This document shows positions 1,438 through 46,335 of a DNA stretch of 64,000 nucleotides, one piece after another. Made by a program: the position numbers and the translations under genes. Within the stretch, counting starts at the first letter, position 1; every line of letters begins with the position of its first letter. The stretch comes from Phycisphaerae bacterium (GTDB lineage: Bacteria; Planctomycetota; Phycisphaerae; UBA1845; PWPN01): assembly GCA_018003015.1 (NCBI GenBank), contig JAGNEZ010000026.1:1-64000 (forward strand), in the 5' to 3' direction. The notes under the pieces are model-generated. The model did not search any database. It saw only the letters and a program-made list of their open reading frames with translations, and had not been told where the DNA came from.

Positions 1438-2973
1438 ATGAAGCGTACCGTCAGCGGCCTGGTTCTGGTCCTCGCTTTCAGTTGTCCATCCCAGGCTCAG
1501 GAAGTGCCCGCGGTCGAAAAGTCCCTCTCCAACGGTATGCGCGTGCTCATGGTCGAACGGCATACCGAGCCCACCATCGCCGGCGGGTGGGTCGCCCACG
1601 TCGGCAGCTCGAATGAGCGACCGGGAATCACCGGTATTGCCCACTTGTTCGAGCACATGATGTTCAAGGGCAGCACCACGATCGGAACCAAGGACAATGC
1701 CAAGGACCAGGAGATCATCGCCAGCCAGGAGGTGCTTCGCGACCAGATGCGCGAGGAAGAGGCCAGAATGCGGGCCGCCCTCCGCCGTGGCCACATCGAC
1801 GACATGCTCAAACCGGAAAACGCCACGCCCCGTTGGCGCGAACTGAAGAAACAGTTCGATGAGCTCATCACCCAGCAGCGCGCTAACATGGTCAAGGACG
1901 AGTTCGATCTGGTATACACCGCGGCCGGCGGCAGCCACCTCAACGCCTTCACATCCAACGATCAGACGGCCTACTTCGTCACCGTCCCGGCCAATAAACT
2001 CGAACTCTGGATGTGGATGGAGTCCGACCGCCTGCTCAACCACGTCTTCCGCGAGTTCTACTCCGAACGCGATGTGGTCCAGGAAGAACGCCGCCTCGGC
2101 GTCGACTCCACCCCCCTCGGCAAGGCCGGCGAGGCGTTCGAGGCCCTGGCTTGGGGCGGCCATCCATACGCCTGGCCCGTCGTGGGCTGGCCGTCGGATC
2201 TGCCCGCCATCACCAAGGCCCAGGCGGACGAGTTCTTCGCCATCTACTACGCCCCACAGAACATCACCCTCGTCCTCGTCGGCGATCTCAAGCCCGACGC
2301 CGTCATCCCCCTGGCCGAGCGCTACTTCGGCCGGATCTCCCGCGGTAGCATCGACCCGCCAGAAGTGATCACCGCGGATCCCCGCCACCCAATCGAGCGA
2401 AGAATGAACGCCCAGGTCGACGCCAACCCCCAAGTCTGGATCGCCTGGCAAACCGTCGCCTCCGCTCACCGCGACGCCTACCCCCTGGCCGTGCTCTGCG
2501 GCTTGCTCGAAGGACGAACCGGCCGCCTGCACAAGGCCCTGGTACTCAAGGACCAAATCGCCACCTCCGTCTCCGCCGCCGATGACTGCCGCAAGTGGGC
2601 CGGCAGCTTCGCCATCAGCGCTGAAGCCCGCGAGCCGCACACACCGGCAAAATGCGAGCAGGCCGTCTACACCGTACTCGATCGCCTCGCCCGCGACGAC
2701 GTGCCCGCCGAAGAACTCCAGAAGGTCAAAAACCAGTTCGCCGCACGCGAGTACCGCAAGCTCGCCAATAACTACGCCATCTTCATGCAGCTCATCCACT
2801 ACGACGGACAGGGTAACTGGCGCGAGATCAACGAGGCCGGCCCTAAACTCCAGGCGGTCACCGCGGCCGACGTCCGACGCGTGGTCAACCGGTACTTCAC
2901 CCCCGAGAACCGGGCCGTGGCCTTGCTCACCCGCAAGCCGCCCGCAGTCCCGCCAAGCCCCACCGAACAGTAA
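1438..2973 (+). CDS. M16 family zinc peptidase, catalytic subunit
   Basis: Insulinase/pitrilysin-type metallopeptidase of about 511 residues, exported. The start at 1438 is chosen because it gives a clean signal peptide (MKRTVSGLVLVLAF...SQAQ); an ATG at 1417 would add seven polar residues. The inverted zinc site HxxEH is present as HLFEH near residues 69-73. The third ligand is probably a Glu in the ERDVVQEERR segment about 75 residues later. Two M16 half-domains are visible. It lies 36 bp before a second M16 gene lacking the zinc site, the usual active/inactive pair that forms a heterodimer, probably in the periplasm. No good Shine-Dalgarno precedes either start. Confidence 0.9.
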   Translation: MKRTVSGLVLVLAFSCPSQAQEVPAVEKSLSNGMRVLMVERHTEPTIAGGWVAHVGSSNERPGITGIAHLFEHMMFKGSTTIGTKDNAKDQEIIASQEVLRDQMREEEARMRAALRRGHIDDMLKPENATPRWRELKKQFDELITQQRANMVKDEFDLVYTAAGGSHLNAFTSNDQTAYFVTVPANKLELWMWMESDRLLNHVFREFYSERDVVQEERRLGVDSTPLGKAGEAFEALAWGGHPYAWPVVGWPSDLPAITKAQADEFFAIYYAPQNITLVLVGDLKPDAVIPLAERYFGRISRGSIDPPEVITADPRHPIERRMNAQVDANPQVWIAWQTVASAHRDAYPLAVLCGLLEGRTGRLHKALVLKDQIATSVSAADDCRKWAGSFAISAEAREPHTPAKCEQAVYTVLDRLARDDVPAEELQKVKNQFAAREYRKLANNYAIFMQLIHYDGQGNWREINEAGPKLQAVTAADVRRVVNRYFTPENRAVALLTRKPPAVPPSPTEQ

Positions 2974-33269: not shown

Positions 33270-35186
33270 TCAACCGCTCACTCCGACGCGAAGGTAGCGT
33301 GTGTTGTTCACCCGCCGGGTAAGCCCGGTGCGGTCAAAGTAGTCCAAGAGCGGGAGAGCGAACTTGCGGGTCGTATCCAGCAAGTACTTGAACCTGACGC
33401 TTTCCAGACGCCCCTGGTCGCGGATGAAGTCTACCAGAAGCTGGCGGGCCTTCGCCACGGCTTGGTGATGGAAGACCATGTCCGGACCGACGCGGGTGAG
33501 CCGGTTCTGCTGCAGCAGAATCCTGATGGCCGGCGCCACCTGGTCGATGGCCGCGCCGGTGAGCCTCGCCAGTTCCTCGGGCTCGGGAGGGCTGAAGAGA
33601 CGTTCGAGGAACAGCGTCTCGATCTGTTCGATGAGTCGCCGCTGATCGTCGGTGAACTGTTCGCGGTGGCCGGCCAGAGCCAGGCTCTGGCTGCGCCGGA
33701 CAAGAGTACCGGACGCGAGAGACAGCTCGACGATGTCCTTGAACAACTCCCTGGACCATCCGGTCAGGCCGTGCAGCTCATCGGCATCGGGCCCCGGTCG
33801 TTCGGGTGCACGCCGGTGAAAGTCTTCGAGCAGGCTCGCCAGCCGCCGGCTCAATTCGGCGGTCGTGTGGCGATGTGCGTATCGCCCGGAGGTCAGCCTG
33901 AGGACGCTCCCCCCCTTCGCGAGATCGGCGAGGATGGCCTGCAGCCGGGAAAGCGGCACCTTGGCCCGGCGGGCAAGCTCGGCCTCGGTGGCCGAATGAT
34001 CGGTGGCTCGTCTGATACAGTATTCAACAAAGCGATTCCCGTCGCCGACCGCCTGAGCGCGTTCGGCCAGATCCTGGAGGAGCTCCGGCCGGCCTCGCCT
34101 GGCTCGTTGGGAGACGCCCTCAATGATCGTTCCACCGCCGATCGTCTGGACCGGCGACAAGGACCGGAGGATGAACCGATCGCCGGGGGCGGCCACCAGC
34201 GGTCGAGATGACCGGACCTGGACCAGCCCCTGTTCCCCGGACTTCATCCGCTCGGAATCCAGAAGGTAGACGGTGGCCATGACCTCGGAGGTTCCGGTGT
34301 GCAGCTTGACCTGCGATGCGTTCTTGAGCTGGGTACGTTCGTGCGGGAGAAGCTGCAGGTGACAGAAGAACCACTGCTGGGCCTCGAAGAAACCGGGGAC
34401 GGCCACGGTGCAGCCCCGGTCGATGGCGTGGTGGTCCCACTGCCGCACGTTGAGGGCGACGCACTGGCCGGCCACGGCGGCGTCTCCCGGGTGCTGGTAG
34501 ACCTGGATGGCGCTGATCCGCCCGGTCAGTTCTTCGGGAAGCAGGGTGACTTCGTCTCCGATCCGGGCGGTGCCTGAAACCGGAATGCCGCTGACCACGG
34601 TGCCGAAGCCCTTGATGGAGAAGGTCCGCTCGATCGGCATTCGGAACACGCCGTCGGTGGGCTTGCGGCGAAGACGGGCCACCAGGTCCTGAAGGGCGGT
34701 GACCAGCTCGCCGAAGCCGTCGCCGTTCAGGTTGGATACGCCGACAATGGGGGCGTTCTCCAGGAAAGTGCCGCCCAGGAAATCGCGGATCTCGGACCGG
34801 ACCCTTTCGGCCTGCTCACCCGGCACGCGGTCGATCTTGGTCAAGGCCACCACGCCCGCCTGAGTACCCAGCAGCGTGAGAATGTCGAAGTGCTCGCGGG
34901 TCTGGGGCATGATCCCGTCGTCGGCGGCAATGACGAAGATCACCCCATCGATTCCGCTGGCTCCGGCGACCATGGTCTTGATGAAGTGCTCATGTCCAGG
35001 GACGTCCACGATACCGACCTGCGTGCCGGCTACCGTGCAGGGGGCAAAGCCCAGCTCGATGGACATGCCCCGTTCTTTCTCCTCTTTCAGGTGATCCGTG
35101 TCGCAGCCGGTCAGGTTCTTGACCAGCGCGGTCTTGCCGTGGTCGATATGGCCGGCGGTGCCCAGCGTGATGTTGATCCGCTCCAT
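33270..35186 (-). CDS. selB: Selenocysteine-specific elongation factor SelB
   Basis: 638 residues. It delivers Sec-tRNA to ribosomes at UGA codons marked by a SECIS hairpin. GTPase motifs are GHIDHGKT (residues 12-19), DVPGHEHF and TKID, followed by beta-barrel domains and C-terminal winged helices (about residues 400-638) that bind the SECIS RNA. The first residues ([19 protein letters not shown]) fix the start. It follows selA by nine bases and precedes a small frame with an in-frame TGA by 45 bases, so the three probably share a transcript. Confidence 0.96.
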
Positions 35187-35195
35187 CTGGTTACC

Positions 35196-36605
35196 TCAAG
35201 CCTGGCAGGCCGCGACCACGGTCTCGATGAGCGGCTGCTCGTCGTCGGCAAACAGGGTGCGGGAATCGATCAGGACCCGGCCCGCGTGGGTGCGGGCAAA
35301 GACCGGCGGTTGCCCGAGTCGCATGCGGCGGGCCAGCTCTCCGGCCTCCATTCGCACCGGGGCAATGGCCACCACCGTGGTGGCCAGCTTCTGCTCCGGC
35401 AGGGATCCGCTGCCCATCTGCGAGAAACCAGCTTCGGTCGTCACCTTCGCCTCGGACAGGCGAGCGGCCAGGGCAAGAGCAATCCGGTCGGCCTGGGCGG
35501 CGACATCAGTTGGCTCGCGCATGAGCATCGCCAGGGTCGGCACTTCACGAAAGGCACGGCACTCGTCGAGGAACAGAGCAAGCGTGGCCTCCAGGATCGC
35601 CAGGGTCACCTTGTCCACTCGGACGGCTCGGGCCAGAGGGTTCTTGCGTACCTGGGTAATGAGCTTCGCCTGGCCCAGGATGATCCCGCCCTGGGAGGCG
35701 CCGATCAGCTTGTCGGCGCTGCAAGTGATGATGTCCGCCCCGGTGGCGACGGAGTCGGCCAATCTGGGCTCGGGCTCGAAACCGAATCGGGCGAAGTCGA
35801 TCAACGCCCCCGCGCCCAGGTCATCGATCAGCGCCAGTCCGTGGTCGTGGGCGATTCGCTCCAGATCCGCCAGCGGAACCTCGGCGGTGAAACCCTGGAT
35901 GCGGTAGTTGCTCGGATGCACCCGCATGATGGCCACGGTTTCGGGCGTGATCGCGCTCTCGTAGTCGCGGGCGTGTGTCTTGTTCGTCGTTCCGACTTCG
36001 ACGAGCCTGGCCCCGCTGGCGGCCATGACATCGGGCAGGCGAAACGAGCCTCCGATCTCGACGAGTTGCCCGCGAGAGACGATCACTTCGCGGCCCTTGG
36101 CGAGCGTACTAAGCACGATCATCGTGGCGGCCGCGTTGTTGTTGACTACGGTGGCCGCTTCGGCTCCGGTGAGTCGCTGGAGGAGCCATTCGATGCGCTC
36201 GTCTCGCCGCGACCGCTGGCCGGTCTCGGTGTCGATTTGCAGGACCGAATAGCCCTGCAACTCGCGTCCCACCTGGTCGAGGGCTGCCTTGGCCAGTACG
36301 GCGCGTCCCAGCCCAGTGTGCAGAATGATCCCCGTCGCATTGATCGCACGGCGGTAGTGGGGGCCGGTTGCAGTGCGGGCCATCTCCAGGACGCGGGCGA
36401 TGACGCTGCCGCGGATGGCGTCAGAGGCAGTGCCACATTGGGTGCCGGCCAGGAGTCGTTGCCTGGCCTCGCTGACCGCGACGCGAACGGCCTCGACCAC
36501 GATCTGGCGAGGCAGCCGGGCCAGGCAGTCCTGCAGCTCGGTTTCCTGGAGGAGAGCATCAACCGAGGGCAGGGAACGCAGTGTATCTTGGCGCGAAGCC
36601 GGCAT
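35196..36605 (-). CDS. selA: L-seryl-tRNA(Sec) selenium transferase SelA
   Basis: 469 residues of the PLP-dependent fold. It converts seryl-tRNA(Sec) to selenocysteyl-tRNA(Sec) with selenophosphate. The family signature around the PLP lysine is TCSADKLIGASQGGIILG near residue 300; NATGIILHTGLGRA and NNNAAA are further landmarks. It leads the selA-selB operon and is divergent from a second in-frame-TGA gene, with a 308-bp spacer. selC and selD are not in the window, so the pathway is completed elsewhere in the genome. Confidence 0.96.
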   Translation of the reverse strand: MPASRQDTLRSLPSVDALLQETELQDCLARLPRQIVVEAVRVAVSEARQRLLAGTQCGTASDAIRGSVIARVLEMARTATGPHYRRAINATGIILHTGLGRAVLAKAALDQVGRELQGYSVLQIDTETGQRSRRDERIEWLLQRLTGAEAATVVNNNAAATMIVLSTLAKGREVIVSRGQLVEIGGSFRLPDVMAASGARLVEVGTTNKTHARDYESAITPETVAIMRVHPSNYRIQGFTAEVPLADLERIAHDHGLALIDDLGAGALIDFARFGFEPEPRLADSVATGADIITCSADKLIGASQGGIILGQAKLITQVRKNPLARAVRVDKVTLAILEATLALFLDECRAFREVPTLAMLMREPTDVAAQADRIALALAARLSEAKVTTEAGFSQMGSGSLPEQKLATTVVAIAPVRMEAGELARRMRLGQPPVFARTHAGRVLIDSRTLFADDEQPLIETVVAACQA

Positions 36606-36913: not shown

Positions 36914-38341
36914 GTGAGGCCCATCCGCCGAGTGCTGATCACGGTAGGGTTTCTGGCCGCGACCTTCTCTCCCGTATGGGCTCAGGAGTGGGTCCCGCTG
37001 GAGAAGAAAGAGGTCAAGGAGCGGCGTTCGCTGCTCGGTGGGGGGAGTCAGTGGCTGGGCAAGACGAGCGGCAAACCGGCTCGACTCAAGGGCCTGCCTG
37101 AGGAAATGGGCACGAAGCTGAGCTACTTCTCCGCCAGGATCGGCGGCAAGCAGACTTGGCTGGTGATCGGAACGCCGCCGGCCGGCTCCAAGCCCAGGAC
37201 TTCGCCCAGGTTCATCGCCGACACGAACCAGAACGGCGACCTGTCCGACGAGAAGATCGTCGCCGGACGCAAGAAGCGCGAGGGCGGGTGGCTGTTCGGG
37301 CGGACGGTGGACCACTACGGACCGCTGACGTTCAAGCCGGCCGATGACGCGGACTCGGCGGATGTAGAGCTGACCTTCCAGTACTACGGTGCAGACGGGC
37401 TGGCGGCCTCTCCAGCTTTCGAACGCGCGGGCGACATCACCGTCGACGGCCAGGAGTATCATCTCATCCTCTCCGACGGCAATGCGGACGGCCGGTTTGA
37501 CGGCTTCTACGGGCCGTCCAAGAAGCAGAGCCAGGAGGAAGAGGCTGATTCGAAATGGACGGTGTTTTCCGAGTTTGACGCCATTTCGATCACGCTGAAG
37601 GACGCCAAACCCGCGGCGGAAGACGCCGTGATCTACCGCTTCTGGGATACGCCGCCCTTGACCAAGACTCTGCGTCTCAAGGACGTCTACTACCAGGTGG
37701 GGGTCAAGCCGGACGGCTCAGCGATTCGCCTCGCCAAGACGGAGTTGCCGGTGGGCACGCTGGACGTGGGGTGCGCCGATGCCTACCTCACGCTCTTCTC
37801 CGAGTGCGGTCTCCAGGAGCTGCAGGGCTCCGGCGGAAAATGGAGGCTGCCTGCGGGCAGGTACGTCTGCTGGTCGCTGGGCCTTCGGCTGACGGACGAG
37901 GCCAACGTCGTCTGGACGCTGCAGGGCTCAGGGGATATGGGCAAACTCGGTGAAATCGTCATCGAGCCCGACAAGACAGTCGCCCTCAAGATGGGGCCAC
38001 CGCTGAAGGTCAAGACCGAAGCTCGGCAGATCAGCGGGTTGTTCAGCAGGAATCGCTACGTGAGCATGGGGCTCACCGGTCAGGCCGGCGAGAGCTACAG
38101 TCACGGAGCCTACAAGAACAGGTGGCGCCTGCCGCCTCCCAAGCTGAAGATCCTGGACCAGAGCGGCCAAGTCATGGCCAACGGCCAGTTCGAGTATGGC
38201 TGAGGTGGTACCTGCCAGTACTCGTGGCGAGTACCCAAGAGCTTCAAAGGCAAGTTCCGCGTCGAAGTGGCCCCCAATCTGGGCCCGTTCAAGGTTGACG
38301 TCGCCAGCAACAGCGATGAGTGGCACGCGGTGAGCAAGTGA
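36914..38341 (+). CDS. Candidate secreted selenoprotein (in-frame TGA), divergent from selA
   Basis: A conventional call ends at TGA 38201-38203. Read through, the frame continues 45 codons to TGA 38339-38341, giving about 475 residues with Sec at 430. A signal peptide (RRVLITVGFLAATFSPVWAQ) leads an exported beta-rich protein with a Ca-loop-like segment (DTNQNGDLSDEK) and another (DGNADGRFDGFYG). The last domain looks like a beta-sandwich that spans the TGA: strand KLKILDQ before it, and YSWRVP, KFRVEVAP and PFKVDVAS strands after it. The motif is G-U-GGTC, so Sec and Cys434 form a UxxxC redox pair. Third-position GC after the TGA is 80%. The start is GTG 36914, seven bases after GGAG; ATG 36908 is possible. 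No known family was recognised. Confidence 0.72.
38218..38234 (+). promoter_or_regulatory. Candidate bacterial SECIS hairpin, secreted protein
   Basis: GTACTCG (38218-38224) pairs perfectly with CGAGTAC (38228-38234) around a TGG loop. The stem starts 14 bases after the in-frame TGA. The UGG apical loop and spacing match the hairpin of the small membrane protein. Confidence 0.6.
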
Positions 38342-38623
38342 GCGCCCGGCCGAGCCTCTCGGGGTCCGCGCGTTCTTGTCAGGCGGTGGGGCGTTGTCCT
38401 CGGTGTCTCTGCCGGGAAGGCTGGCTGTTGCCGGTGTTTTGCGTCCCCCGATGCTGAAAGGCCCGGTCAGTGGTCGGTGACCGGGGTTCGGGGTTCGGTG
38501 ATGTGCCTTTGCGTCACTCATGTCGGGGAGACGAAGCGTCGGTCGACGGAGCTTGCTTCACCCGGGGAATGGGCGACCCTGAGACGCACATCTGGCGATG
38601 GCCATCGCCGGTTCGCTGGCGCC

Positions 38624-40810
38624 ATGGTTGCAGCCGCCCTGCTCCCGATCCTTCTCTGCCCGGTAATCGCTCGAGCGTTGGCCAGCGAGAGGAAGCTCGT
38701 CCTGGCCTGCAGAGTGGACAACGACCTGTGCCAGGTTCTGGAGGCCTCGGGCATCACCTGCCCGCGCTACGATGCCGCCGGACGGGCCGTCGGCGAAGCC
38801 CCCTCGGGCGCGACGGTGATGATCCTGGCGGACGGCTACCCCGAGCAGACGACCGAACTTGGCCCAGCTTTACTGGAGAAGGCTGCCGCCAAGGACATCC
38901 GCCTGTATGTCGAGTATCCAAGGGCCGTTCCGGGTCTCGAGGTCGGCCCGCCGCGAGAGACGCAGTGGGAACGCGTGGTCGTCTCGACCGACGTGTTCGG
39001 CCCGGCCCTGCCACGGCTGCGCATTCTCATGGTACACGGTTGCCGTTTCATTCCCACGACGAGCGTGGACTCCCTGCTCGTGGCCGGTCGCGTCGCGGGT
39101 TTCGACCAGGCGGTGTTCGGACTGCCCAGCCAACTGTCTCCCATCCTGTTCGAACTGCCGCAACGGCGTCTGGTTGTCGCGACCACCAAGTTGAGCGCCT
39201 TCTTGACCGGTCGCTATGCCCCGGCGAGCGACTGGCAGGTCTTCTGGCAGCAGATGCTCGGGCGACTCACCGATCGCCAAGCCATCCCGCTCCGGGTGAC
39301 GCCGATCGTGACCCCCGCGTACGGTCCGGCCGATCCGCTTCCCGCCGACGTCGAGAGACGCAGCCTTGCAGCCTTCACCCGGTGGGCGGTTGACGCTCGG
39401 CTGCTCGTGCACTCATCCCGCCAGGCCGAGATCCACCGGCTTCTGACCGCCAATGTGGAAGCGGCCGCGGCCCCCGGGCCTGGCGCTCCCAGCGGTGACG
39501 GTAGTCTTGGCCTGCTCGAGGGATTCGAGTCGCTGATCGCCTGGGATGGCAGCCAGAAGCAAAGGCTTCCGCTGCGGTGTGACTGCCACGCGGAGATGGC
39601 CGCCTGCATGGCCCTGGACTGGGCTGTGAACCACAATGCCGGCAGTCGCAGGATCGCCGAGAACCTGCTGGACTTCGTCTTCTTCAAGTCGGAGGCCATG
39701 CGCGGCCCACGCGGCGATCCAACTCATCCGGCATTCGGCCATGTGGCTTGGGGATTGATCGCCCCGGCCTGGCAGATCGCCCATTACGGCGACGACAACG
39801 CCCGGGTCGTGGAGGGCGCGATCGTGGCCGCCGCCTGCCTGAAGTCGGATCGCTGGGATGAGCCGATTCTTCGAGCCTTGTTGGCCAACCTGCGAACCAC
39901 CGGGAGACTCGGCTTCCGGGGCGAGCGGATCGACATCGCCCCCCTCGAGCGACGCGGCTGGAGACCCTACCATGATGCCGACACAGTCGATCTCTGCGCC
40001 CACTACGAGGCGGCTCTGTGGGCCTGCTTTCTGTGGGCGTATCAGCACACCAATCACCTGCCGTTCCTCGACAAGGCGAAAACCGGGATCCGCCGGATGA
40101 TGGAAGCCTACCCCGGCCGTTGGCGATGGCAGAACAACCTGGAGCGCGTCCGCATGGTCCACTGCCTCGCGTGGCTGGTCCGCGTGGAAGACACCCCGGA
40201 ACATCGAGACTGGCTCAAACGGATGTGCACCGATCTGCTCGCCTGTCAGGATCCCGCCACCGGAGCGGTCGCCGAGGTCATCGGAGCCAAAGGCTCCGCC
40301 CACTTCCTGCCGCCGACGAGCAACGAGGAGTACGGGACTCGCGAAATGCCCATCATTCAGGACAGCGGCGATCGGGCCAGCGACCAACTCTATGTCACCG
40401 GCTTCACGCTGCTGGTTCTGCATGAAGCGAACGCCGTTCTCGGCGATCCCGGGCTCCAGACGGCCGAAGACAGGTTGGCGGAGTATCTCTGCCGCATCCA
40501 GGTTCGCGCCGATCGGATTCCGTACCTCAACGGTGGATGGTTCCGGGCATTCTGCTTCGGGCGATGGGAGTACTGGGCAAGCTCGGGTGACGCGGGATGG
40601 GGAGCCTGGAGCATGGAGGCCGGATGGGGCCAGGCCTGGGCCGCGGCGACCATGGGCTTGAGGGCGTTGAACACAACCGTCTGGGATCTGACCGGCGACA
40701 GCAAGATCGATCGGCATCTGCCCGCCGTTCAGCAGCTCATGGCGGTGAACAAGGGCGGCCCGTGGCGATCGACGACACAGCCTGACCCTGTGTCTCGGCC
40801 CCCAGAATGA
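38624..40810 (+). CDS. Secreted protein of unknown function with alpha/alpha-barrel-like C-terminus
   Basis: About 728 residues if ATG 38624 is used, which gives a signal peptide (MVAAALLPILLCPVIARALA); the frame is open upstream to 38477 without it. The first third (LVLACRVDNDLCQVLEASGI, MILADGYPEQ) resembles a beta/alpha region. The remainder from about residue 290 is helical with repeated Trp/His-rich segments (CHAEMAACMALDWAV, AHYEAALWACFLWAY, SMEAGWGQAWAAATMGL), like six-hairpin glycosidases. A sugar-cleaving or polysaccharide-related role is inference. It is on the same strand as the selenoprotein gene, 282 bp away. Confidence 0.65.
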   Translation: MVAAALLPILLCPVIARALASERKLVLACRVDNDLCQVLEASGITCPRYDAAGRAVGEAPSGATVMILADGYPEQTTELGPALLEKAAAKDIRLYVEYPRAVPGLEVGPPRETQWERVVVSTDVFGPALPRLRILMVHGCRFIPTTSVDSLLVAGRVAGFDQAVFGLPSQLSPILFELPQRRLVVATTKLSAFLTGRYAPASDWQVFWQQMLGRLTDRQAIPLRVTPIVTPAYGPADPLPADVERRSLAAFTRWAVDARLLVHSSRQAEIHRLLTANVEAAAAPGPGAPSGDGSLGLLEGFESLIAWDGSQKQRLPLRCDCHAEMAACMALDWAVNHNAGSRRIAENLLDFVFFKSEAMRGPRGDPTHPAFGHVAWGLIAPAWQIAHYGDDNARVVEGAIVAAACLKSDRWDEPILRALLANLRTTGRLGFRGERIDIAPLERRGWRPYHDADTVDLCAHYEAALWACFLWAYQHTNHLPFLDKAKTGIRRMMEAYPGRWRWQNNLERVRMVHCLAWLVRVEDTPEHRDWLKRMCTDLLACQDPATGAVAEVIGAKGSAHFLPPTSNEEYGTREMPIIQDSGDRASDQLYVTGFTLLVLHEANAVLGDPGLQTAEDRLAEYLCRIQVRADRIPYLNGGWFRAFCFGRWEYWASSGDAGWGAWSMEAGWGQAWAAATMGLRALNTTVWDLTGDSKIDRHLPAVQQLMAVNKGGPWRSTTQPDPVSRPPE

Positions 40811-41083
40811 GATTGCGGCACACGCGGGTGGCGCATGGAGGCAAACGAAGAAGTGATGTCCGCGATCGTCCAGAATCGGTTCGTCTGCCGCTCTCCGTAC
40901 TCCTGCCGGATGGGTGAGAGACGGGTTCGTGACAGTTTCGGCAGCCGGACTCCCTGGTCGCCTGCGCTCATCCGCGCGGTGGGTGCCCTGGAGGGCGCCC
41001 GCCCGGTCGGGTATGCGTTTCTTCCTTGTTCACGCTGACATGGTCTTGTCGTCACAGTATCATCTTTGCGAGGAGTCACGGTC

Positions 41084-41890
41084 ATGAAGAGAGTCGAGGG
41101 TATCGATCTGGGAAGCGTTCAAGCCGTGTACACGGGCTCCGAATGGAGGCTCTGGGAACTTCTGATGGGCGAGCAGATACACATCGGTGGGCTGGTATCG
41201 TCACAGGAGTTGGCTCGAAAAGCGGGGATTGCCACAGGCATGGCCGGCACCGATCTCTGCTGCTGCACCGGGGCGGGCATGCGTTTTCTGGTCCGGTTCT
41301 GCCAGGTCCGCCGGATGGTCGGTGTCGACGCCACCGAAACGGTGGTGCGCAGGGGCGAGCAGCGATGCCGAGACGAGGGGATGGAACATCGTATCCGGTT
41401 TGTCCTGGGCGACGCCTGTGAAACGGGCCTGGAGTCGGCCAGCGTCGATTTCGTCTGGGGTGAGGATGCGTGGTGCTACGTGGCGGACAAGGCTGCGCTG
41501 TTGGCCGAGGCGGCTCGATTGGTCAAGGGGGGCGGTCTCATCGCCTTCACCGACTGGATCGAGGGTTCGCCGCCCATGTCCGACGCCGAGGCCGATCGCT
41601 TCCTGCGGTTCATGAAGTTCCCGAGTGTGCAGGATCTGGGCGGCTACCGCGGATTGCTCGAAAGCTGCGGCTGCGCGGTCGTGACGGCCGAGGACACCGG
41701 TCGCTTCGCGCCGCACGCGGAGCTGTACGTCCAGATGCTCTCCACTCAACTCCGGTACGATGCCCTGAAGATCATCGGCTTCGACTCGGCTACGATGGAG
41801 GGCCTGATGGGCGAACTCCGCTTTGTGCGTGATCTTGCCCGTACCGGCAAGATCGCCCAGGGTCTGTTCGTGGCCCGCAAAGCCCGGTGA
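41084..41890 (+). CDS. Class I SAM-dependent methyltransferase
   Basis: 268 residues. The SAM-binding motif I is unusual: TDLCCCTGAGMRF, with three consecutive Cys where most enzymes have VGCG. Motif II is FVWGEDAWCYV and motif III follows in LVKGGGLIAFTDW. It resembles small-molecule N- or C-methyltransferases of the sarcosine/dimethylglycine type. Start ATG 41084 has GAGGAG nine bases upstream. It lies 68 bp before the dehydratase-like operon on the same strand, so it probably belongs to the same pathway. Confidence 0.82.
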   Translation: MKRVEGIDLGSVQAVYTGSEWRLWELLMGEQIHIGGLVSSQELARKAGIATGMAGTDLCCCTGAGMRFLVRFCQVRRMVGVDATETVVRRGEQRCRDEGMEHRIRFVLGDACETGLESASVDFVWGEDAWCYVADKAALLAEAARLVKGGGLIAFTDWIEGSPPMSDAEADRFLRFMKFPSVQDLGGYRGLLESCGCAVVTAEDTGRFAPHAELYVQMLSTQLRYDALKIIGFDSATMEGLMGELRFVRDLARTGKIAQGLFVARKAR

Positions 41891-41958: not shown

Positions 41959-43167
41959 GTGAGTTCACGTTGCGGGCAGAATCACGAGCCGGCCGCCGGA
42001 TCCGGGGTCTGCGGATCGGCGGGCGGAGGAAGCGACCCCCGGTCCCATTTCGCGGGCATGATTCCCAACTGCCTCGCCTACGCCACGGAGGCGAAGCGGC
42101 AGGGCCGGCCGGTCGTCGGCATCATGTGCGAATACACGCCACGCGAGCTGATCATGGCGGCCGGAGCGGTGCCGGTGTGCCTGTGCGGGGGATCGGCCAA
42201 GACGATACCGGCCGCCGAGGAGCATCTGCCCGCCAATCTGTGCCCACTGATCAAGTCCACTTTCGGTTACCATGTGCAGAAGGGCAACCCCTTCCTCGAG
42301 ATGGCCGATCTGGTTGTGGCGGATACGACCTGCGATGGCAAGAAGAAGATGTTCGAGCTCATGGGTGAAACCCGGCCGATGTTCATTCTCGAACTGCCCC
42401 AGAAGCCGGATCGGCCCGAGGGTCTGGCCTTCTGGCGGTCTGAACTGGTCCGCCTGAGGGACGAGCTCAGCCGGAGGTGCAAGACGGAGATCACCGACTG
42501 CCGCCTGAAGCGGGCGGTCGAGGCGATGAATGAGGAGCGATCGCTTCGTCGGCAGTTGGCGGAGCTGATGAAGCGTGAATCGCCGCCCCTGACCGGGCGG
42601 CAGCTGCTGGATTTCAAGAGCAGCATCTCGTGCGTTCCCGTCGACATCGAGCAATACAGGAAAGCGATCGAGCTGCTCGGGAACGAGGCCCCGGATTCGG
42701 CGATGAGATCCCGGGTCCGGGTGCTCATGACCGGGGTGCCCATGGCCCATGGGGCCGAGCGAGTGCTGGAGATCATTGAGAACAGCGGCGGCCTGGTGGT
42801 CGGCATGGAGAACTGTACCGGGCTCAAGCCGATCATGGAGGACGTGGAGATTGACGGCGATGTGCTCGAAGCCATCGCCAGGAAGTACTATCACCTGTCA
42901 TGCTCGGTGATGACCACTAACGAGCGGAGGCTGGACCTGCTGCGGCAACTGGCGGCCGAGTATCGCCCGCAGTGCGTGGTGGAACTCATCTGGCAGGCCT
43001 GCCTGACCTACGACGTCGAATCCAACCGCGTGCGCCGGCTGGTGGAACAAGAGTTGAACCTGCCGTATCTGCGGATCGAGACGGACTACTCGCCCTCCGA
43101 TTCCGCCCGGATCGCGGTTCGGGTCGAGGCCCTGTTCGAGATGGTCCGCGGCCGGGGCAAACGATGA
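41959..43167 (+). CDS. Double-cubane-type reductase / 2-hydroxyacyl-CoA dehydratase family, subunit 1
   Basis: 402 residues. Family segments are GIMCEYTPRELIMAAGAVPVCLCGGS, PANLCPLIKS, DTTCDGKKKMFELM and the C-terminal ETDYSPSDSARI, matching the HgdB/BcrC superfamily branch known as double-cubane-cluster proteins. Conserved Cys ligands are present. These enzymes make very low-potential electrons, with ATP-dependent activation, to reduce unusual substrates. The start is GTG 41959, preceded by GGAG. The stop overlaps the next start (ATGA), and three more coupled genes follow. Confidence 0.85.
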   Translation: MSSRCGQNHEPAAGSGVCGSAGGGSDPRSHFAGMIPNCLAYATEAKRQGRPVVGIMCEYTPRELIMAAGAVPVCLCGGSAKTIPAAEEHLPANLCPLIKSTFGYHVQKGNPFLEMADLVVADTTCDGKKKMFELMGETRPMFILELPQKPDRPEGLAFWRSELVRLRDELSRRCKTEITDCRLKRAVEAMNEERSLRRQLAELMKRESPPLTGRQLLDFKSSISCVPVDIEQYRKAIELLGNEAPDSAMRSRVRVLMTGVPMAHGAERVLEIIENSGGLVVGMENCTGLKPIMEDVEIDGDVLEAIARKYYHLSCSVMTTNERRLDLLRQLAAEYRPQCVVELIWQACLTYDVESNRVRRLVEQELNLPYLRIETDYSPSDSARIAVRVEALFEMVRGRGKR

Positions 43168-44153
43168 AGACGGTATTGTCCACCTGTCCCTATGTGCCTT
43201 CGGAGTGGGTTGCCTCCCACGGTCTGCATCCGCGGCGTTTTCGGCCAGGTGACGCTCGCGCCGCCGCGGGCCTGGCCGGCGGGGCGGGGGTCTGTCCGTA
43301 TGCCCGCGATGTCCTGCGAGCCATGGAGGCGGCGATTGTAACCGCGGACACCGCTGGCGTGGTCATCACCACGGTGTGTGATCAGATGCGGCGGGCGGCA
43401 GACCAGCTGTCGGGGACGGACTCCCGCCCGGTGTTTCTGATGAACGTGCCGACCACCTGGCAAACGCCTGCCGCGCACCGGATCTATGTTTCCGAACTGC
43501 GGCGTCTGGGCCGTTTCCTGGTCTCCGTGGGCGGCAGGGCGCCGGACGATCGCCAGTTGGCGAACACGATAGTAGCCTATGACCGGGCACGTTTCACGCT
43601 CAAGGAGTGTCGGCGGCGATGCTCGGGAAGCGGGTTCAGCCGGTTGTTGGCGGAGTTCGACGAGCAGGGACTGGACGTATCGTTCTCCCTTTCGGCTCCC
43701 GGACCTGCCGACGCGGTCAGGCTGGCCCTGGTTGGTGGCCCGCTCTGGGCCGAGGACGCAGAGCTGTTCGAGATCATCGAGAGTCTCGGCGGCAACGTGG
43801 TCCTCGACGCTACAACCAGCGGGGAGTTGGTCATGGCGGACGCGTATGACCGGTCCCACCTTGCGGACCGGCCGCTGGAGGAGATGGCTCGGGTGTACGG
43901 GCGCATCCCCGACGCCTTCCGTCGTCCCAACGTCGCCCTGTTCGAATGGTTGGGGCGCGAGTTGGCGGCTCGAGGCGTGCAGGGAATCGTGTTCCGCACC
44001 TGTCTGTGGTGCGACACGTGGGTGGCGGAACTGGTGCGCATCCGGGACGGGTTTGGATTGCCGGTCCTGCACCTGGATGTTGACGGAGCGAGCCCGGGTT
44101 GCCGTGCCCGGATCAGCGGCCGGCTGCAGGCGTTCATGGAAGTGCTTCGATGA
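43164..44153 (+). CDS. 2-hydroxyacyl-CoA dehydratase-like, subunit 2
   Basis: 329 residues. It begins MKTVLSTCPYVPSEWVASHGL, the same opening theme as HgdB-type subunits, and keeps Cys at positions fitting cluster ligands (TCPY, GVCPYARD, TTVCDQMRR, FRTCLWCDTW). It is shorter than subunit 1. It overlaps subunit 1 by four bases (ATGA) and subunit 3 in the same way, so expression is stoichiometric. It probably pairs with one of the other subunits; which one is not clear. Confidence 0.8.
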   Translation: MKTVLSTCPYVPSEWVASHGLHPRRFRPGDARAAAGLAGGAGVCPYARDVLRAMEAAIVTADTAGVVITTVCDQMRRAADQLSGTDSRPVFLMNVPTTWQTPAAHRIYVSELRRLGRFLVSVGGRAPDDRQLANTIVAYDRARFTLKECRRRCSGSGFSRLLAEFDEQGLDVSFSLSAPGPADAVRLALVGGPLWAEDAELFEIIESLGGNVVLDATTSGELVMADAYDRSHLADRPLEEMARVYGRIPDAFRRPNVALFEWLGRELAARGVQGIVFRTCLWCDTWVAELVRIRDGFGLPVLHLDVDGASPGCRARISGRLQAFMEVLR

Positions 44154-45526
44154 GTGGCCTCGCGTCCATCACGCTCGAGCAATGGGATCGTCGCTACGAG
44201 GAACTGCGCGCGGCGGGCCTGCGGGAGCCGGAGTATGGGGGGCCGTTGCGGCGACATGTCGAGGACGGTGATCGGCGGTTGCTTCGGCTCCGGTTTGACC
44301 CGTCCCCGGCGGCGTTGCGGTTGTGGAACTTCCTGCTGACCGAGGAGGCACGGCTGCGGAAGGCTCGCCGGGACGGCAAGAAGCTGGTTGGCGTCATGAA
44401 GGATCTCGGGACGACGGCGCTGATGGCTTACTGCGTCCCTGAGCTGGTGGCCTTCTATCCCGATGGGGCCTGGTGGATCCCCTGTGTGATGGAAATGCAG
44501 GCGGGCCTGTTCTCGATCGCCGATTCGCTGGGCATCAACGACTCGTTCTGTCCGGTGCGAGCCATGCTGGGGGCGTTCGTCACTGGGGCGCACTTCCCGA
44601 TCCCGGACATGCTGGTATGCAGTGCGGGGGCGACGTGCGACGACTTCTCGGCCATCGCTCAGCGGCTTGAGGGGCTGGGGCACCCCATCTTGTGGTGGGA
44701 GATCCCGCACCGGCGGAGACCGGAGTCGGGGGAAGGGCGGGTCGAGCTGCCGGGCGGTTTCGTCGCCCCGACCGAGCAGGTGGCCGTGGTCCGCGAGGAG
44801 CTCGATCGGGTGCGGGAGGGGCTGCAGAGCGTGGCCGGTTCTCGGCTCGATGATGTCCGCCTAGCCGCCGGGATTCGCAAGGCGAACCGGGTCCGGAGGC
44901 TCCTGGCCGATCTACGGCGCCAGGTCTTCACCGCCCCGCGTTGTCCGATGCCAGCCTTGGAGATGCTGGTTGCGGAGATGCTGGCCATCCATTTCTGTTC
45001 CGATTTCGACGAGAGTCTGCGAGTGCTCGCCGACCTGGATGAGGAGGTATCGGCTCGCGTGCGATCAGGTGAGGGCATTCTCCCGGCCGAAGCGGTTCGC
45101 GTGTACTGGGTGAATCCGGTGGCGGACCTGCGGGTCATGAACCTGCTCGAGTCATGCGGCGGGCGGGTATGTGGGACGGAGTACCTGTTCAGTCACGCCC
45201 TGGATCTCATTCCGGAGGATCTTGGTCCGATGGAGGCCCTGGCTCGGATGGCCCTGGCCGATCCGATGGTTGGGCCGGCTTCTGATCGGGCGGAGCGGAT
45301 CTGCCGGGATGCGGTTGGTTTCGGCGCCGAGGCGGTGCTCATCTCGCGCATTCCGGGTGCCAGTCACTGTGCTCTGGAAGGTGAGGTGATAGCCGAGGGT
45401 GTACGGCGGCTGGGGCTTCCGGTGGCGGAGATCGAGGTGCCGTCGCTTTCGGACGCCTGTGGACCGCGGCTGGCCACTCGGCTGGGTGGCCTGATCGAGA
45501 CCGCGTTGAGGAGGAGGGGCTCATGA
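44150..45526 (+). CDS. 2-hydroxyacyl-CoA dehydratase-like, subunit 3
   Basis: 458 residues, the longest of the three. HgdB-like features include LVGVMKDLGTTALMAYCVPELVAFYPDG near residue 80, VCSAGATCDDFSAIAQRLEGLG, and the C-terminal VGFGAEAVLISRIPGASHCALE. Start ATG 44150 overlaps subunit 2 by four bases, and its own stop overlaps the activator start. The presence of three unequal dehydratase-type subunits with one activator differs from the usual one- or two-subunit systems. Confidence 0.8.
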   Translation: MSGLASITLEQWDRRYEELRAAGLREPEYGGPLRRHVEDGDRRLLRLRFDPSPAALRLWNFLLTEEARLRKARRDGKKLVGVMKDLGTTALMAYCVPELVAFYPDGAWWIPCVMEMQAGLFSIADSLGINDSFCPVRAMLGAFVTGAHFPIPDMLVCSAGATCDDFSAIAQRLEGLGHPILWWEIPHRRRPESGEGRVELPGGFVAPTEQVAVVREELDRVREGLQSVAGSRLDDVRLAAGIRKANRVRRLLADLRRQVFTAPRCPMPALEMLVAEMLAIHFCSDFDESLRVLADLDEEVSARVRSGEGILPAEAVRVYWVNPVADLRVMNLLESCGGRVCGTEYLFSHALDLIPEDLGPMEALARMALADPMVGPASDRAERICRDAVGFGAEAVLISRIPGASHCALEGEVIAEGVRRLGLPVAEIEVPSLSDACGPRLATRLGGLIETALRRRGS

Positions 45527-46335
45527 TCGTCGCGGGTATCGACGCCGGTTCTCGAACGATCAAGATCGTTCTATGGGACGGGGGCCGTGGAGCGATGGTG
45601 GGCGCGGGGGTTGCCGACCAGGGTGTCGAGCAGGACGCGTTGGCTGGCGCGTTGCTTGATCGGCTACTGGGCGAGACCGGACGGGCCCGGTCGGATCTTG
45701 GACGGGTGGTTGCCACCGGTTATGGGCGGGGCATCATGAGCATGGCCGACAGCACCGTGACGGAGATCACCTGCCACGCAGTAGGCGTGCGGCACGTGCT
45801 GCCCGGGGCGCGGACGGTGATTGACATTGGCGGGCAGGACAGCAAGCTGATACGACTGGACGGTGACGGCAGCGTGCGTGATTTCGTGATGAACGACCGA
45901 TGTGCGGCCGGGTCGGGCAGGTTTTTAGAAGTTATTGCAGCTCGTTTGGGTGTTGAGTTGTCGGCCCTGGGTGCCCTGGCCCGGCAGAGCGAGCGGCCGG
46001 CGGTGATCAGCAGCATGTGTGTGGTGTTCGCCGAGACGGAGGTCATCGGTCTGTTGGCGTCGCGTACGCCGGCGGCGGATCTGGCCGCAGGGGTTCAGGT
46101 CTCGATGGCGAACCGGGTGGTGGCCATGGCTGGCCGGCATCTGGATCTGCCGATCGTGTTTACCGGCGGGGTGGCCCTGGTGCCGGGCATGTCGGACGCG
46201 TTGGCGACGGCCCTGGGGCATCCACTCCAGGTGGCTCCGGATCCGCGGATGACCGGAGCTCTGGGTGCGGCCCTGCTCGCCGCCAGCCACGCGGAGCCGG
46301 TTCGGGCGAGGGTGGCCCCGGCACCTCCCCGGTGA
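45523..46335 (+). CDS. BadF/HgdC-type ATP-dependent activator
   Basis: 270 residues of the ASKHA ATPase fold. It opens MIVAGIDAGSRTIKIVL (phosphate 1), has VIDIGGQDSK (phosphate 2) and Cys ligands in MNDRCAAGSGRF and SSMCVVFAE, which bind one [4Fe-4S] cluster between the two monomers. It hydrolyses ATP to push electrons into the dehydratase subunits. It overlaps subunit 3 by four bases. A short stretch around 45920-45960 uses unusually AT-rich codons compared with its surroundings. Confidence 0.92.
   Translation: MIVAGIDAGSRTIKIVLWDGGRGAMVGAGVADQGVEQDALAGALLDRLLGETGRARSDLGRVVATGYGRGIMSMADSTVTEITCHAVGVRHVLPGARTVIDIGGQDSKLIRLDGDGSVRDFVMNDRCAAGSGRFLEVIAARLGVELSALGALARQSERPAVISSMCVVFAETEVIGLLASRTPAADLAAGVQVSMANRVVAMAGRHLDLPIVFTGGVALVPGMSDALATALGHPLQVAPDPRMTGALGAALLAASHAEPVRARVAPAPPR

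Follow-up and report, generated by a model that had tools for sequence, protein, structure and literature searches.

A predicted selenoprotein gene of a Phycisphaerae bacterium and its apparently unreported family of exported, mostly selenocysteine-only proteins in Planctomycetota

In the 64,000-nucleotide stretch of contig JAGNEZ010000026.1 analysed in this study (Phycisphaerae bacterium, assembly GCA_018003015.1; hereafter the window), a gene for a putative exported protein lies divergent from selA, and its reading frame is interrupted by an in-frame TGA. Does this TGA end the protein, or is it read as selenocysteine (Sec)? An earlier note, made from the sequence alone, proposed a selenoprotein that standard gene calling cuts short, with a hairpin just after the TGA and beta strands beyond it that complete a domain. 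This core reading is strongly supported by the conservation of the TGA, by the hairpin and by the sel genes.

The interrupted frame and the modelled domain

The predicted gene lies at 36914..38341 on the forward strand. It begins with GTG, preceded by a Shine-Dalgarno-like GGAG, runs for 429 codons to the TGA at 38201..38203 (codon 430), stays open for another 45 codons and ends with a second TGA at 38339-38341. The product has 429 residues if translation stops at the internal TGA, and 475 residues with U430 in the full reading. The GC content at third codon positions was 83.9% before the internal TGA and 80.0% after it, which confirmed the open extension of about 80% described in the earlier note. 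An open frame after a TGA is weak evidence when taken alone, because in this GC-rich window at least 45 open codons follow 30% of all TGA triplets. The case for recoding rests on conservation and comparison, not on the openness of the frame.

The N-terminus (36914..36985, forward strand) resembles a signal peptide, RRVLITVGFLAATFSPVWAQ, and a simple heuristic found a hydrophobic, signal-like start in 20 of 20 aligned family members, which supports the proposed export; one member, L011, carries a lipobox-like LAGC. According to the alignment and the structure model, a beta-rich region with the acidic motif DTNQNGDLSDE follows at 36992..37996 (forward strand); it is variable across the family and missing from the short members. 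The C-terminal part (37997..38338, forward strand) was modelled as an Ig/macroglobulin-like beta-sandwich that carries the Sec site.

The AlphaFold model of the full-length protein had a pLDDT of 80.7, and that of the domain 90.4. In these models, residue 430 sits between strands of the sandwich and the later strands come from the extension; the modelled domain is incomplete without the residues after the TGA, as the earlier note had supposed. Foldseek and VIA comparisons of the full-length and domain models gave common Ig/macroglobulin arrangements alone, with no thioredoxin or DsbD among the matches listed. The VIA Z scores, 7 to 7.8 against macroglobulin chains and 8.5 against DUF4426 (3uc2; 3.0 A over 98 residues), are in the range of common arrangements. 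Because the matches are generic sandwiches, the fold is uninformative on the chemistry. The PDB sequence search gave no credible relative, and the MG2 profile scored the window protein at 13.1 bits, below its gathering threshold of 32.8. We also considered a thioredoxin-fold selenoprotein with a UxxC or CxxU motif, which agrees with neither the almost all-beta model nor the UxxxC motif.

Conservation of the TGA, the hairpin and the Sec machinery

Homologues were sought in three overlapping samples of Planctomycetota genomes, and were found in 15 of 150 genomes of relatives, in 60 of 392 genomes of the phylum (45 of these with the TGA, by our own count) and in 44 of 298 genomes of the class. 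Taken together, these overlapping scans gave well over 100 relatives in which a single in-frame TGA stands at the family site, and nearly all full matches had exactly one in-frame TGA at the same position. Some genomes held 7 to 13 family matches, with 13 in G563. An exact-peptide-pattern scan of genome contigs reached the sister MAG only, and the family sampling is that of Planctomycetota. The plasmid search gave no family match, and none was found in viral contigs searched with Cys-form patterns.

In the same-genus MAG (JAKLEZ010000001.1), the gene copy was 97% identical with the TGA intact, and its extension differed from that of the window gene by 3 synonymous codon changes and by no non-synonymous one. 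The genome of the window also has a paralogue (G000:C20) with its own TGA, in KFEYG*GFTCGYSWRVP. The main branch of the family follows the motif [FL]x[YF]G-U-G-[GF]-x-C-x-[YH]-[ST]-W-x-V-P, and the Sec position was the only invariant column in an alignment of 43 diverse sequences. The TGA at the position of residue 430 is thus kept across the phylum, in the sister MAG and in the paralogue; the homologues continue past it, and the region around and after it is the best conserved part. By sequence comparison, the conservation of coding sequence on both sides of an in-frame TGA that marks bacterial selenoproteins is present here. A sequencing error at the TGA is excluded because independent copies carry the same TGA, and the conserved TGA together with the selection after it also rules out a pseudogene.

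The hairpin GTACTCG-TGG-CGAGTAC (38218..38234, forward strand) starts 14 nt after the TGA and pairs 38218-38224 with 38228-38234 around a UGG loop (38225-38227). The perfect 7-bp stem described earlier was confirmed, and it recurs in the family at the same spacing. In 57 genes, 302 of 399 possible stem pairs were formed, against 206 expected from synonymous-codon shuffles that kept each protein (z = 11.9), and sliding the stem off its position dropped the pairing towards background. A held-out test on 32 members left out of the earlier tests gave z = 11.0. Among 26 aligned sequences, double (compensatory) changes were found at all seven stem pairs, and the covariation score was 0.544 vs 0.174 and was reached by none of 500 shuffles. 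In L014 the stem is GCTCTCG-TGG-CGAGAGC, and this compensation changes the protein as well, from Y to L and from V to E; it is a clear case of RNA pairing and a protein motif co-evolving, in which the two substitutions together keep the stem. In divergent subfamilies the stem is shifted by one to a few bases, so that they score low in the fixed-position test. The folding energy of the whole region compared with synonymous shuffles (mean z of -0.48) was uninformative because other structures form, whereas the fixed-position stem test is informative. An Rfam search of the window at the gathering threshold gave nothing. A SECIS-like hairpin shortly after the UGA, with a G in its apical loop, is nevertheless in place.

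The Sec machinery is present in the genome. On the reverse strand of the window, selA, encoding selenocysteine synthase (35196..36605; TIGR00474, 528 bits), lies divergent from the selenoprotein gene, followed by selB, encoding the Sec-specific elongation factor (33270..35186), which was assigned from its translation; the selB genes at the same place in related loci pass TIGR00475. This divergent arrangement, pointed out in the earlier note, is recurrent in the family. The tRNA-Sec (selC) is on contig C9 of the same genome and adjoins a SelD-like reading frame, the candidate for selD. By our count from the coordinates, roughly 28 of 46 genomes have a family gene no more than 6 kb away from selB.

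Sec machinery and family also go together across genomes. A selA match was found in 42 of the 45 genomes with TGA copies compared with 246 of 392 overall (Fisher 8e-7, uncorrected for kinship), and the three TGA genomes without a selA match do have SelB. Of the 33 family genomes in the class sample, 28 had SelB above the cut-off; the remaining five were G561, G573 and G535, which have no TGA copy listed, G615, with a partial SelB match, and G668, a fragmented draft. G528, whose family copy is a CC variant that lacks the TGA, had neither selA nor SelB above the cut-off, and four genomes with solely non-Sec versions had no SelB. As counter-examples, G103 (L013) and G597 (L145, L146) have SelB yet only non-Sec copies, which shows that single lineages can do without Sec.

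Two readings without Sec have to be weighed against these data. In one, translation ends at the TGA at 38201-38203, either a normal stop or a nonsense mutation of recent origin, and does not reach the extension. TGA is indeed the usual stop in this genome, and long open stretches after it are as common as stated above; but the phylum-wide TGA, the purifying selection and covarying hairpin after it, the adjacent sel genes and a domain left incomplete without the extension make this reading very improbable. An in-frame TGA would also be seen if it were read as Trp or another amino acid through a code change or suppression. Against this, most genes in the window end with TGA as a normal stop, which shows that the genetic code is not reassigned. 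TGA stands in 82 distinct members, no intact motif has a Trp codon (the W of the divergent variant L151 is found where the motif is lost), and the SECIS-like hairpin, tRNA-Sec and SelB are present. We regard this as the least probable reading of all. In our judgement, codon 430 is almost certainly decoded as Sec: SelB, directed by the hairpin just 3' of the TGA, would insert Sec at residue 430.

Variation at the Sec site, neighbouring genes and the role of the selenol

At the family site, 99 distinct members (loci L042-L153) were compared, 82 with Sec and 17 without. A few of the 17 non-Sec rows are offset alignments; L067 carries CU, and Sec is therefore present one column on. Plain replacement of U by C in the motif was found in 0 of the 17 non-Sec variants in this Planctomycetota sampling, and among sequences lacking Sec only L144 (WCSC), L059 and L149 (both QCCG) had a Cys at the site or beside it. 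In L013, Leu stands at both the Sec and the Cys positions, and Sec and the Cys at +4 are gone together. Within Planctomycetota, as sampled by sequence, selenocysteine is almost never replaced by cysteine, and the homologues in many genomes are Sec-containing. The window gene appears to belong to a large family of exported proteins with an Ig/macroglobulin-like domain, which is mostly Sec-only. Two other sites stood out: L076 has two adjacent in-frame TGAs (AGUUGS; about 1476-1481, forward strand) at the family site and is a possible double-Sec protein, and G650:C175:661-903 (L153) is a family match with one in-frame TAG instead of TGA.

The earlier note had paired Sec430 with Cys434 (codon 38213..38215, forward strand) as a UxxxC redox pair. 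From the sequence and the family comparison, Cys434 is conserved in the main branch, and 65 of the 82 distinct Sec members have Cys at +4, so the residues of the proposed pair are kept there. It does not extend to the whole family. About a fifth of the Sec members lack a Cys at +4, which makes Sec the essential residue and confines the pair to part of the family; as the sequences stand, a simple selenenylsulfide pair is not general in the family. A divergent branch (L060, L061, L062, L066, L070) has YGUGGG, no Cys at +4 and a similar-shaped hairpin about one base earlier.

The neighbouring genes were also compared. The gene order in the closest relatives runs selB-selA, the divergent family gene, a methyltransferase, one to three HGD-D genes, a BcrAD ATPase and sometimes selD. 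In the window, the forward strand has the methyltransferase (Methyltransf_11, 41066..41890), a neighbour conserved in the closest relatives, three HGD-D genes in tandem, namely a double-cubane-cluster anaerobic reductase (41959..43167; NF040772, 412.6 bits), a second HGD-D-like protein matched by profile (42972..44153) and a third (44099..45526), and a BcrAD/BadFG ATPase activator (45523..46335). The methyltransferase shows a distant likeness to the DVU_1556 family, scoring 49.9 bits where the cut-off is 155. Between it and the selenoprotein gene, a gene of 777 residues (38477-40810) has no Pfam or NCBIfam match and, among the loci compared, a counterpart in the sister MAG only.

More widely, the genes that recur beside the family gene are selA, selB, selD and those for a small membrane-anchored protein and a Fer4_5 (NapH-like) membrane protein. 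Transporters and metal-resistance genes were not among the recurring neighbours in the loci compared. The NapH-like protein matches NapH/MauN (TIGR02163) with 47.8 and 55.3 bits, far short of the 213 bits of the curated cut-off, and is a distant relative at best. The small protein ends in CPT, TGA, one or two codons and a stop (CPTU-x(1-2)-stop). A SECIS-like hairpin follows this TGA in most copies, and CPTU is kept in all copies inspected. The CPTU family was found in 8 of 392 genomes, and all eight hold the main family (hypergeometric 1.7e-8, with related genomes that are not independent). In several inspected loci its gene lies directly upstream of the Fer4_5/NapH-like gene, and in the genome of the window it lies beside the tRNA-Sec and the SelD-like frame (L033:1107-1472; G000:C9). 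Other copies are at L082, L088, L090, L093, L096, L097, L099, L105, L106 and L107. The CPTU proteins are apparently a second unreported selenoprotein family. At L092:12380-14092 we observed a SelD-like protein that is rich in Cys at its N-terminus and carries, at its C-terminal end, a CMD/AhpD-like domain whose last residues are CCSDSGCC.

What, then, does the selenol do? It would sit on a loop of the sandwich, Y-G-U-G-G, and pair in main-branch members with the Cys four residues on. With such pairing, an extracytoplasmic selenol-thiol reductase is the most likely function, and we believe that the protein probably works in this way. Electrons might reach it via the NapH-like membrane 4Fe-4S protein and the CPTU selenoprotein encoded in the same islands, a route suggested by neighbourhood and co-occurrence that we put forward tentatively. 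Equally tentative is the wider proposal of a Planctomycetota extracytoplasmic selenium redox system, in which Sec-obligate Ig-like proteins would be served by a CPTU electron carrier fed from the NapH-like Fe-S protein. Such a system would be the selenium equivalent of DsbD-type relays, and a main reason for these bacteria to keep Sec. The explanation as a whole, with an exported selenoprotein, a redox role and a relay, is somewhat more likely true than false.

Two further readings accept Sec and differ on its use. The selenolate of the exported domain could bind a soft metal or metalloid, e.g. a mercury, copper or arsenic species, without redox catalysis. Sec without a Cys partner in some branches, the vicinal CU forms (L067, L077) and the many paralogues, which could suit sequestration, are in keeping with this, as are, weakly, the copper-site FetP folds among the middling fold matches. 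However, no second soft ligand is conserved family-wide beyond the Cys at +4, and what recurs beside the gene are sel genes, selD among them, and membrane ferredoxins rather than transporters or metal-resistance genes; we consider metal binding unlikely. A permanent Se-S bond, or an inter-chain Se-Se bond, that stabilises or cross-links the exported protein without turnover would agree with a sandwich that has no recognised enzyme relative and with the joint loss of Sec and Cys in L013. Such a bond should not depend on Sec, but the family has almost no Cys replacements and recoding is costly; this reading seems to us less probable still. The selenol-thiol reductase remains our preferred function.

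Novelty and comparison with known systems

In NCBIfam (June 2026), no family matched more than 1 of 20 members and none had an E value below 0.014; in Pfam, the best match was MG2 at E = 0.0012, with 3 of the 20 members at E up to 0.1. The accessible part of a 2026 inventory of 119 prokaryotic selenoprotein families (PMC13188914) contains no matching family, and no description of the family was found in searches of the open-access journal literature. These results agree with the earlier statement that no described selenoprotein family is recognised here, and we conclude that this is apparently a previously unreported, large family of exported selenoproteins in Planctomycetota.

Selenoprotein discovery depends on Cys homologues, and the filter of deep-Sep may, according to its own paper, drop selenoproteins without them (PMC12013277). 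Although its likely members number well over 100, the present family has almost no Cys forms, and methods based on Cys homologues would tend to miss it. Standard annotation truncates its members at the TGA. Most characterised selenoproteins are thioredoxin-like, and this family adds an all-beta, exported, Sec-dependent class. It reaches around a dozen copies in some genomes and offers a testable reason for Sec retention in Planctomycetota.

The DUF1573 domain is Ig-like in nature, and the N-terminal domain of DsbD has an Ig-like fold with a redox Cys pair. The resemblance to DsbD is one of working principle, a redox pair on an Ig-like domain outside the cytoplasm that a membrane partner feeds, and serves as a lead only; no sequence match was found, and the membrane partner here would be the NapH-like 4Fe-4S protein, not the DsbD membrane domain. 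The DUF1573 selenoprotein (PF07610) is, in the accessible part of the inventory (PMC13188914), likewise a predicted bacterial selenoprotein outside the thioredoxin core; its motif there is UGC, compared with YGUGGxC in the Planctomycetota family, which has no Pfam match to PF07610. Selenoprotein A of the glycine reductase complex was long held to be the sole selenoprotein without Cys homologues; such homologues have now been reported for it, and the same study concludes that no known selenoprotein lacks them (PMC12013277). Selenoprotein A belongs to an unrelated family, and it is the Planctomycetota family that now comes close to an exception from the Cys-homologue rule.
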